Positions 28,406-32,635 of a DNA stretch of 32,635 nt are shown piece after piece. The stretch lies in assembly GCA_947305865.1 (NCBI GenBank), contig CAMZEU010000006.1, positions 1 to 32,635 of the forward strand, given 5' to 3'. Origin of the DNA: an uncultured Clostridia bacterium (lineage in GTDB: Bacteria; Bacillota; Clostridia; Christensenellales; CAG-917). Positions within the stretch are counted from its first letter, which is position 1, and the number at the start of each line of letters is the position of its first letter. The translations under genes and the position numbers were made by a program. A model generated the notes under the pieces. It worked only from the letters and a program-made list of their open reading frames with translations, searched no databases and was not told where the DNA came from.

Positions 28406-28900
28406 CTAAAACTCAATGTACGGAAGTACCTTATTTATTTTTGTTTTATTTATTGTTATTTCTTTTTTATTTTTACCACCGATAATTGTTACATCATCAC
28501 TTGTATATGCTTTTAATTCTCCGTGGATTTTTTCTTTTTTGCCATTTTCTTCGTAGAAGATCTCAATTACTTCTCCAAGATTTCTTCTGTAGTCATCGTC
28601 ATCTACGATTGGTCTATCTAAACCTGGAGATGAGATATTGAGTTGATACTCTGATGGGAAGTCTGCCTCATACAAATCTAGTTCATCACTAACTGCATTA
28701 TGTAGTACTTCTAAGTCATCAATTTGTATTCCACCTTTCTTCCAAACAAAGATAGTTAATGATGGATGTTTGTATTCTTTGAAATATTTTATTTCAACTA
28801 CTTCATATCCGTTGGTTTCTGCTATTCTGCAAATAACCTCATTAACGCTTACTCTAACGTCTTCTCTAATTGGAAATTGTGTGCTATATGTTTCTTTCAT
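28406..28900 (-). CDS. rimP: Ribosome maturation factor RimP
   Basis: NEVICRIAETNGYEVVEIKYFKEYKHPSLTIFVWKKGGIQIDDLEVLHNAVSDELD, YQLNISSPGLDRPI; directly upstream of nusA. Start set at 28900 (aaaaaggacaaagaaaaATG) because the track's start at 28954 would translate through the leader hairpin. Confidence 0.94.
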   Translation of the reverse strand: MKETYSTQFPIREDVRVSVNEVICRIAETNGYEVVEIKYFKEYKHPSLTIFVWKKGGIQIDDLEVLHNAVSDELDLYEADFPSEYQLNISSPGLDRPIVDDDDYRRNLGEVIEIFYEENGKKEKIHGELKAYTSDDVTIIGGKNKKEITINKTKINKVLPYIEF

Positions 28901-28919
28901 TTTTCTTTGTCCTTTTTTT

Positions 28920-28952
28920 ATATAACAAGAGTGAGTCGTTTCCGGCTCACTC
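28920..28952 (-). promoter_or_regulatory. Leader hairpin with interrupted U-tract upstream of rimP-nusA operon (candidate NusA-dependent attenuator)
   Basis: On the - strand: GAGTGAGCCG-GAAA-CGACTCACTC, a 10-bp stem with one G-U pair and a GNRA loop, followed by TTGTTATAT. It ends about 20 nt before the rimP start codon. Confidence 0.6.
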
Positions 28953-28978
28953 AAGAATTACATATTCATGATGTGTGT

Positions 28979-29036: not shown

Positions 29037-30644
29037 TTATCTTTTATCCATTTCGACAGCCAAAATCTTTAATACTTCAGCTGTTGCAAGGACGTCTGCA
29101 AGTGCTCTATGTGCATCATTATGTGAGATGTGATAGTCTGCAGATAATTCAGTTAATCTATATCCCTTTCTGTTAGGAAGTAATTCTTTAGCTTTTACGA
29201 TGGTGTCAAATGTTTCGTTGTTAAACTTATATGAATACTTTCTAGCAATATTTTCTACAAATGGAAAATCGAAAGAACCAATATTATGGCCTACTAATGT
29301 ATAGTCTTTACAGAACAATAAGAAGTCTGGCAATATCTTTGATATTGGTGGACAATATTGAACCATATCATTTGTAATATGTGTGATTTCACTAATTTGT
29401 GGTGGGATAGGTTTTGATGGCTTTACAAGTGTTTGGAAAGTTTCTGTAACTAAACCATTAACCATCTTGCATGCACCAATTTCTATAATTTCGTCTTTAG
29501 TTGTGTCTAATCCTGTAGTTTCTAAGTCAAAAATAACATAAGTTTTATCTTTTAACAGGCTTGGAACTTCAACATCTTGGTCATCTAATAATGATAAAGA
29601 TGCAACTGTAAATACTGGATCGTTATATGGTTGTGGAGATACAGTTTGATATTCAAGTGGTAAATCTTTTGTCTTTTTATACTTGATGGAAGAATAATCT
29701 ATATCACATCTTCCAATTGCATCTACCATAGCCTTAACCTTTCCCTTATTCATCATGTCATCTTGAACTTGGCCTTTAACAAGAACTTCATCTCCATCAT
29801 GAATTAGTGAGAAACAAATAATATCTTTCTCTTCTGGGAATATTACACAATTAATTCTTCCTGTTGTATCATTGATGTTAAACGAGACGAGTTTTTTCAT
29901 CTCTGGACCTGATTTGGGGTTGTTAGAATCATACTTTTTGTTCTTATACTCTTTAATTAAGAACTCTGAAACCTTGCCACAAAGAACACAATTTTGACCT
30001 GCTCTTGAGCTTGCATTTACGATATAAGTTGGCATTTCAGCAATGCCTTTTATACCTCTTTTTCCATATACCATGCTAAAGTTATTTACTGTGATTAAAC
30101 CAACATCATCACTTTGTTGAATAAGTCTTGGAGTATACTCGGATACTTTCATTCCTTTCTTTTCTGTAATATTAATGATAATGTTTTGTATAAAGTTCAT
30201 ATCTAAATAATCTTTGAATGGATCTAAGAATTGAATGCTGCTTACCATTAAATAAATAGGTGTATCAAATGTGAAATCAATAATAATATTTTGTTCATCT
30301 ACACTTATTTTAAGGTTATCATCGGATATTTCTTTAAGTAAAATTGAGTTGTTTGAATTTAAAAATTCAATTATTTTATTTTTTACAACTTTTTCATCTG
30401 CGAAAGCCTTAACATAAGAAACATTTACTTTTAGTCCATTAGTAACAATTTTAGATACAATAGACTCCACTTCTTGCTTTTGGTCTTCTGTGAAGTTCTT
30501 TATATCAATTGGTGAAATCATGAACTTAATTTCTAGTTCAGTATCACCTTCAGTTTTTCTTATATAATCAGCTGATTGGAATTTAATCATTGGGAATTTC
30601 CCATTAGCTAATCTTTCAAATTCTTCTACAAACTTAATACTCAT
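29037..30644 (-). CDS. Truncated PolC-like protein: PolC N-terminal-like domain, OB-like segment and DEDDh 3'-5' exonuclease; no PHP or polymerase module
   Basis: Exo motifs YVIFDLETTGLDTTKDEIIEIGA (I), LVGHNIGSFDFPFVENIA (II), HNDAHRALADVLATAEVL (III). N-terminal ~350 aa resembles the PolC NI/OB layout. Occupies the ispG-rimP slot normally held by polC. Stop at 29037-29039. Confidence 0.85.
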   Translation of the reverse strand: MSIKFVEEFERLANGKFPMIKFQSADYIRKTEGDTELEIKFMISPIDIKNFTEDQKQEVESIVSKIVTNGLKVNVSYVKAFADEKVVKNKIIEFLNSNNSILLKEISDDNLKISVDEQNIIIDFTFDTPIYLMVSSIQFLDPFKDYLDMNFIQNIIINITEKKGMKVSEYTPRLIQQSDDVGLITVNNFSMVYGKRGIKGIAEMPTYIVNASSRAGQNCVLCGKVSEFLIKEYKNKKYDSNNPKSGPEMKKLVSFNINDTTGRINCVIFPEEKDIICFSLIHDGDEVLVKGQVQDDMMNKGKVKAMVDAIGRCDIDYSSIKYKKTKDLPLEYQTVSPQPYNDPVFTVASLSLLDDQDVEVPSLLKDKTYVIFDLETTGLDTTKDEIIEIGACKMVNGLVTETFQTLVKPSKPIPPQISEITHITNDMVQYCPPISKILPDFLLFCKDYTLVGHNIGSFDFPFVENIARKYSYKFNNETFDTIVKAKELLPNRKGYRLTELSADYHISHNDAHRALADVLATAEVLKILAVEMDKR

Positions 30645-31696
30645 TATTCTTCCTTAAGGTAGTTATTCACATATTTCATAAACTCTTCTACCAAATTTTC
30701 ATTACTAATTCTGGCAACTTGTTTGCCTTTCACAAATATTATAGACTCTTTTTCTCCACCAGCGATACCTAAATCTGCGCCTTTTCCTTCATCAATCCCA
30801 TTTATGGGACATCCCATGACCGCGATCTTTATATTTTTGTTGATTTTCGCTAATTCTTTCTCAATTTTCTCGGAAAGAAGTGGTACATTTATCTTTGTTC
30901 TGGCACAAGTTGGACAAGAAACAAGTTCTGGAACATCATTTCTAAGACCTAGGCTCTTTAATATCGTCTTAGCAGCAATTACTTCTTCAACTGGAGAATT
31001 AGACAAGGATACACGTACAGTGTCTCCTATGCCTTGTTCAAGCAGTCTAGAGATAGCAATACTGGACTTAACCAATCCTTCTCTTAATGGACCAGATTCT
31101 GTTAGGCCAATGTGCATAGGATAATCGCATATTTTAGCAATTTTTTCGTTGCATTCTATTGTCGTTTGGATGTTAGAAGATTTAAGCCCTAAAACTATAT
31201 CATGAAAACCAAGGTTTTCAAAGACAGATAAACAATCCATTGTAGAGTTAACAATTTTATCCACTTCACTTTGATTTTCATAGCTTTTATTTATAGATCC
31301 AGCATTGACACCAATTCTTATGCAAGCATGATTATTTTTGAGTTCTGAAACAAGCTTATCTATTTTAGAAAAGTCTGGCATATTGCCTGGATTCATTCTT
31401 ATTTTCTTTGCACCTGCTTCTAGAACTTTATATGCGAGTTCATAACTATAATGAATATCTGCAATTAGAGGTATATTAGTATTCTTTTGCAATGTTACGA
31501 ATGTTTCTAAACTCTTATCATCTGGAACTGAAACTCTAATTAAATCACAATGAACCTCTTCAAGTTCCTTGATTTGCGTTAAGCAAGCATCCACATCTGT
31601 GTTCTTTGTTTTTAACATAGATTGAATTGAAATAGGATAATTGCTTCCTATTCCTACGCTTCCTATATTGAAATTGCGAGTAATTCTTCTTCCCAT
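30644..31696 (-). CDS. ispG: 4-hydroxy-3-methylbut-2-en-1-yl diphosphate synthase (flavodoxin) IspG
   Basis: SIQSMLKTKNTDVDACLTQIKELEEVHCDLIRVSVPD, PLIADIHYSYELA, KIRMNPGN, SCPTCART, VMGCPINGIDEGKGADLGIAGG. Start at MGRRITRNF (RBS agaggtgttATG), not the track's 31750. Confidence 0.96.
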   Translation of the reverse strand: MGRRITRNFNIGSVGIGSNYPISIQSMLKTKNTDVDACLTQIKELEEVHCDLIRVSVPDDKSLETFVTLQKNTNIPLIADIHYSYELAYKVLEAGAKKIRMNPGNMPDFSKIDKLVSELKNNHACIRIGVNAGSINKSYENQSEVDKIVNSTMDCLSVFENLGFHDIVLGLKSSNIQTTIECNEKIAKICDYPMHIGLTESGPLREGLVKSSIAISRLLEQGIGDTVRVSLSNSPVEEVIAAKTILKSLGLRNDVPELVSCPTCARTKINVPLLSEKIEKELAKINKNIKIAVMGCPINGIDEGKGADLGIAGGEKESIIFVKGKQVARISNENLVEEFMKYVNNYLKEE

Positions 31697-31703
31697 AACA
31701 CCT

Positions 31704-32635
31704 CTAACCTGATACCAAGTGGAATATATCAAAGAAAACAGCCAAAGCAACTAATATAACTAGACCTACTGTATGTATTATTGCTTCTATTTTTCTCGGT
31801 ACTGGTTTTCTAAAAATCCACTCTATTGTTGTAAACACCATTCTAGATCCATCTAGTGCAGGAATTGGTAGTAAGTTAAATACTGCAAGGTTTGCAGATA
31901 TTATTGAAATAATATAAAGTAGATAACTAAATCCACCAAGTTGTGTGCCTTCAGCCATAATTTTAATGGTTGTAATTGTTCCACCTACAGCTGTTGCGCC
32001 AAGTTTTCCTGTAATTAATGCACCAAGTGTTGCCAATATCTTAAATACTACAAAGAAACAGAATCCAAATGCTCTACCAAGTGCTTTGTCATATGAAAGT
32101 TTTTGAGCAACTATTGTTCTTGTAATACCGAAACCATATGAATAGTAACCTGTGGTACTTACATTTCCAGTATCTGAACTTACCTTACTTACATATGCTG
32201 CAACAGGTATTCCATCTTCTTCACATACTACGATATGTTGGTCTGTATCTGTTATATGAGCATCTAATTCACCAAAGGTGAACTTTTCACTTTCTTCTAA
32301 TTCCTTGTCATCTAATTGGATTACTACATCTGTATCATTAAATGGTTTGTAATAACCTTTTGATGCTGTGATAGTTACATCTTTTCCATCTCTTAAGACT
32401 TTAAATGTTCCACTATCTTCAACCTTGTTAAATAAGTTGTTTATGTCATCTGCAAGTAAAATATTTACTTGTTTGTTATTAATTCTAAGTATTACATCTC
32501 CATCTTGGAATGTTGCTGGAGCACCTTCTAAATCATGAACATTTGTTACTTTTGGAAGGAATTGTCCGTATGTTGCAAAATATATTGAAATAACAATAAT
32601 TGCAAATAAGAAATTGAATCCAGCACCAGCGAATT
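31704..32635 (-). CDS. rseP: RseP/YluC-type site-2 membrane metalloprotease, C-terminal part (PDZ-containing), 5' end outside window
   Basis: Frame open to the window edge: ...FAGAGFNFLFAIIVISIYFATYGQFLPKVTNV...GAPATFQDGDVILRINNKQVN (PDZ-like)...LATLGALITGKLGATAVGG...SANLAVFNLLPIPALDGSRMVFTTIEWIFRKPVP (NLLPIPALDG zinc-site motif). Confidence 0.93.
   Translation of the reverse strand, partial: FAGAGFNFLFAIIVISIYFATYGQFLPKVTNVHDLEGAPATFQDGDVILRINNKQVNILLADDINNLFNKVEDSGTFKVLRDGKDVTITASKGYYKPFNDTDVVIQLDDKELEESEKFTFGELDAHITDTDQHIVVCEEDGIPVAAYVSKVSSDTGNVSTTGYYSYGFGITRTIVAQKLSYDKALGRAFGFCFFVVFKILATLGALITGKLGATAVGGTITTIKIMAEGTQLGGFSYLLYIISIISANLAVFNLLPIPALDGSRMVFTTIEWIFRKPVPRKIEAIIHTVGLVILVALAVFFDIFHLVSG

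Follow-up and report, generated by a model that had tools for sequence, protein, structure and literature searches.

The window, a stretch of 32,635 nucleotides from an uncultured Clostridia bacterium (GenBank assembly GCA_947305865.1, contig CAMZEU010000006.1, positions 1 to 32,635), carries between ispG and rimP an intact ORF of 535 amino acids encoding a PolC derivative (Table 1). The ATG start codon overlaps the ispG stop codon as TAATG. The protein consists of a PolC N-terminal domain (NTD), an OB fold, a linker of about 50 residues and a DEDDh exonuclease. The gap of 82 bp to the rimP ORF contains no remnant of a polymerase. The preliminary description had reported a PolC stub of this kind in the polC slot, without PHP or polymerase domains, and this observation is confirmed. 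The clamp-type motif that the linker carries in relatives had not been noticed at that stage.

Table 1. Features of the PolC-derived stub and its neighbours in the window.
Feature	Coordinates	Strand	Residues	Support
PolC-derived stub (stop codon included in the coordinates)	29037..30644	-	535 aa	ORF and profile searches; orthologues in relatives
PolC-type N-terminal domain	30159..30644	-	1-162	Profile-profile match to the PolC NTD, P 97.4%, E 1.5e-11; AlphaFold2 model
OB-fold domain	29700..30095	-	about 184-315	Pfam PF01336 (residues 249-304, E 8e-8); NTD+OB against PolC, P 99.7%, E 2e-25; AlphaFold2 model
Linker, where full PolC has the N-terminal part of PHP; low-confidence core at 344-355	29547..29699	-	316-366	Alignment with full PolC; AlphaFold2 model
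Position of the QxxLF-like clamp motif, here degenerate (SLSLL)	29586..29600	-	349-353	Strict pattern in 30 of 52 linkers against 0.4 in shuffles; the window's genus does not match
DEDDh 3'-5' exonuclease domain (D373, E375, D459, H512, D517)	29055..29549	-	366-530	Pfam PF00929, RNase_T (residues 370-525, E 7e-36); residues invariant over 52 rows
ispG, upstream neighbour of the polC slot	30644..31750	-		ORF; same neighbour in relatives
rimP, downstream neighbour of the polC slot (first start codon of the frame; a later ATG is possible)	28406..28954	-		ORF; same neighbour in relatives

Pfam searches of the protein detected no PHP and no polymerase family even at E<=1, and the PHP region is absent in the alignment with full PolC. 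The best NCBIfam match was PolC PRK00448, with its best stretch over the exonuclease and a score far below the cut-off (165.8 against 873 bits). The NTD is not recognized by Pfam, but profile-profile comparison (hhalign) with full PolCs from sister families established the homology of this region, both for the NTD plus OB fold and for the NTD alone. An AlphaFold2 model built from 52 orthologues has a mean pLDDT of 89.6, with confidence below 50 mainly at residues 166-179 and 344-355. Its best match in the PDB is the PolC structure 9qpc (E 3.6e-18 over 403 columns), an entry corresponding to E. faecium PolC (PMC12592400).

The polymerase half of PolC was then sought in the genome and in its relatives (genomes, loci, families and genera of the survey are designated here by G, L, f and g numbers, respectively). 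The window's assembly (1.32 Mb, 110 contigs, 76% complete) contains a single C-family polymerase core, a DnaE, and no second PolC or PHP-polymerase fragment was found in this draft genome. Across the order, TIGR01405 was searched in 198 genomes, 196 of them at least 90% complete and low in contamination. PolC above the cut-off is carried by 66 genomes, and three more (G077, G087 and G118) carry it in contig fragments. This leaves about 129 genomes without a PolC-sized match, although the slot was not inspected in all of them. A PF07733 search of 61 genomes gave one C-family gene in every stub genome tested and two in every PolC genome; in G089 and G102 one ORF matched in two pieces and was counted twice. 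In family f10, G068 has one C-family gene, and neither PolC nor a slot stub could be found in it. This genome groups with PolC-bearing relatives, and an IspG query also returned nothing, so that its slot was not read; either a second loss of PolC or an assembly gap could explain this case.

Orthologous stubs with polC-slot neighbours (rseP-ispG-[stub]-rimP-nusA) were read in 52 genomes besides the window, from 15 families of one order, probably Christensenellales. Their lengths run from 485 to 581 aa, some with uncertain starts or cut by contig ends, while sister families have a PolC of 1,329-1,458 aa in the same place. In family f26, with very small genomes, ispG is missing from the slot, but the stub remains between rseP and rimP (L055, L056, L076, L078, L081-L083). 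In the window's own family, 34 of 36 genomes match, and the two misses are 64% and 87% complete. Named records of this family include Candidatus Limadaptatus stercoravium and records labelled Christensenella sp. UBA1260/UBA1262. The name of the order is an inference, with family f26 fitting UBA1242 of the Christensenellales (PMC12306168).

In a DnaE tree of 40 rows, the stub genomes form one side of a branch with SH-aLRT 100, and two changes of PolC status suffice, one for the clade and one for G068. As the tree is midpoint-rooted, a single origin is the simplest reading and not a proof. A class-wide search listed full-length stub matches only in this order, among the matches shown. A phylum-wide search with the NTD plus OB fold alone found mostly ORFs of 1,200-1,500 aa outside the order. 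Several short ones lie near contig ends, and those in G792 (636 aa) and G763 (362 aa) were not examined further. The tree of the exonuclease domain did not settle whether the exonuclease of the stub is PolC's own or a replacement. Concerning selection, two congeners differ at dN 0.054 and dS 0.525, a ratio of 0.10, whereas most other pairs are near or at saturation at synonymous sites.

The five DEDDh residues are invariant in the 52-row alignment. This alignment left out L052, whose exonuclease is degenerate, and did not include the other degenerate stubs, which were found later. In families f16, f19 and genus g74 of f29, the domain has lost catalytic residues while the ORF, the slot, the NTD and the OB fold persist. 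The ten such sequences aligned (L166-L169, L171-L175 and L052) keep a glutamine at the motif position, and the model of one of them still shows a folded C-terminal domain (mean pLDDT 81.2). L170 is similar but runs off its contig, and in G050 the f16 stub is L166 and not the ORF on contig C13 (L059). G050 and G053 have further RNase_T nucleases, while G073 and G127 showed no second match to the stub model. A full-length PolC of family f10 (L071:4140-8366, in G184) has an internal exonuclease that appears to have lost its DEDDh motifs while the C-terminal QLSLF is kept. The stub is the only RNase_T match found in G001, G002, G009, G060, G142, G041 and G058, which include both congeners of the window. 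Two nucleases of about 300 aa (L181:2430-3335 and L183:1352-2260) have a Cas2-like N-terminus, judged by eye, joined to a DEDDh exonuclease; they are probably Cas2-DEDDh CRISPR adaptation fusions and not relocated PolC exonucleases.

PolCs of the order end in QLSLF-like clamp motifs, and QxxLF is the usual clamp-binding motif (PMC12309361). The stub lacks that end, but its linker carries a peptide of the same kind in most of the clade. The strict pattern Q.[SDTNEA][LMI][FL] occurs in 30 of 52 linkers, whereas residue shuffles give a mean of 0.4 and a maximum of 3 in 1000 rounds; elsewhere in the same proteins it occurs 2 times in 25,529 residues. The pattern was chosen after linkers of the same families had been seen, so the enrichment is descriptive, although the position and conservation of the peptide are plain in the alignment. 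The window's genus has SLSLL or ATTLL at this position. Clamp binding by the window's own protein is therefore uncertain, and with no binding measurement the clear motif of the relatives and its degenerate form here do not decide whether it is a beta-clamp client. As for the polymerase, the DnaE of stub genomes keeps the clamp motif in most rows and the PHP residues wherever the search patterns could read them; the unread positions are most likely failures of the patterns. The DnaE of the stub clade (L146-L158) also has a longer, more acidic segment between the clamp motif and the OB fold than the DnaE of PolC genomes. This feature follows the clade, so it is not independent evidence of contact with the stub.

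The preliminary description had offered two alternatives for this gene: reduction to a stand-alone proofreading or adaptor subunit with DnaE or a separate polymerase polypeptide replicating the chromosome, or a split polymerase with the catalytic half encoded elsewhere. Its interpretation is supported in the first form, with DnaE as the polymerase, and the second is rejected, no second PolC or PHP-polymerase fragment having been found in the window's draft genome or in near-complete stub genomes, which have exactly one C-family core each. Three conditions that would have counted against it had been set out in advance. A full-length polC elsewhere, which would have left a paralogous exonuclease, was not found in the window's draft genome. 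An assembly deletion and a decaying pseudogene are contradicted by the same architecture in the same slot of dozens of genomes and by purifying selection, with dN/dS about 0.10 between two congeners.

What the sequence analysis itself demonstrates is that, in a large clade of one clostridial order, polC has no PHP or polymerase domains, while its NTD, OB fold and DEDDh exonuclease persist as one conserved protein in the polC slot, with DnaE as the only C-family polymerase found. The role of the protein is inferred. It is proposed, with moderate confidence, that the stub is a stand-alone replisome subunit, a domesticated PolC front end whose exonuclease proofreads DnaE in trans, working like E. 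coli epsilon but of separate descent. In this view, the NTD and OB fold would bind DNA or replisome partners, and the linker motif would tether the protein to the beta clamp in most of the clade, weakly or not at all in the window's own genus. Exonuclease activity, essentiality and binding to DnaE, DnaN or tau have not been shown. Where the exonuclease has decayed, the adaptor role would remain, and proofreading would be left to the PHP of DnaE or to another nuclease. The PHP site of DnaE looks intact, so a second proofreader may not be needed, and the loss of catalytic residues in some stubs means that proofreading cannot be the role in every lineage. The most economical reading is that the trans-proofreading function described for B. 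subtilis PolC outlived the polymerase of PolC.

Other explanations appear less likely. The stub could be mainly a structural adaptor, with the NTD, OB fold and clamp-type motif organizing the DnaE replisome, as the front half of PolC may have done, and the exonuclease being secondary. The degenerate stubs that keep the ORF, the slot, the glutamine and a domain still modelled as folded are consistent with this, but most stubs keep all five DEDDh residues and several genomes have no other RNase_T nuclease that could be found; this reading is considered unlikely. Still less probable is a repair or RNA-processing nuclease that has left the replisome and kept only its address. The apparently intact PHP site of DnaE, which may proofread for itself, and the loss of the strict motif in the window's genus would fit, whereas the retention of the PolC NTD and OB fold and the conserved clamp-type motif in most of the clade speak against it. 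A split polymerase has in its favour only the incompleteness of the window's assembly, and is all but excluded by the single C-family core, a DnaE, of near-complete stub genomes and by the lack of a PolC-sized match in about 129 genomes of the order. Pseudogene decay or an assembly deletion is equally improbable; some families show decay of the exonuclease active site, but the reading is contradicted for the clade as a whole.

Two surveys of bacterial polymerases list DnaE1 alone, PolC+DnaE1 and PolC+DnaE3 (PMC3919608, PMC12926913). The 2013 survey required an intact polymerase core, and no mention of such a stub was found in either. Literature searches likewise found no description of it, which is weak evidence since only open-licence papers were covered. 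This clade shows how a two-polymerase system can become a DnaE-only one while keeping the proofreader of PolC as a separate protein, in effect a convergent epsilon. It offers a natural test of which parts of PolC matter when its polymerase is gone, and it can be inferred that PolC-directed antibiotics have no polymerase target in these gut bacteria. A further possibility, somewhat less likely than not, is that the polymerase-free remnant has become a dedicated clamp-bound replisome subunit whose scaffolding role can outlive its nuclease, giving a fourth bacterial replicase arrangement: DnaE1 plus a PolC-derived accessory protein.

Among known systems, the stub shares with PolC, the DNA polymerase III alpha of Bacillota (NF001688 / TIGR01405), the NTD, OB fold and DEDDh exonuclease in the same order and the same gene slot, but it has no PHP, no polymerase core and no C-terminal QLSLF, with about 500 aa instead of about 1,400. 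E. coli epsilon (DnaQ), the proofreading subunit of DNA polymerase III, is also a separate DEDDh exonuclease beside a DnaE-type polymerase, and has a clamp motif in a flexible segment, as do the stubs in most of the clade. However, the window's protein scores far below the DnaQ equivalog cut-off (TIGR01406; 75.5 against 222.7 bits) and carries a PolC NTD and OB fold; binding to the PHP domain of DnaE was not assayed. The precedent for the mechanism is B. subtilis PolC, whose exonuclease acts in trans on DnaE errors in a ternary complex (PMC5627055), although there PolC is a complete polymerase. Finally, the exonuclease-less PolC of Clostridia and Negativicutes (PMC3919608) is another case of domain loss within clostridial PolC, but in the opposite direction, since those proteins keep the polymerase and drop the exonuclease.
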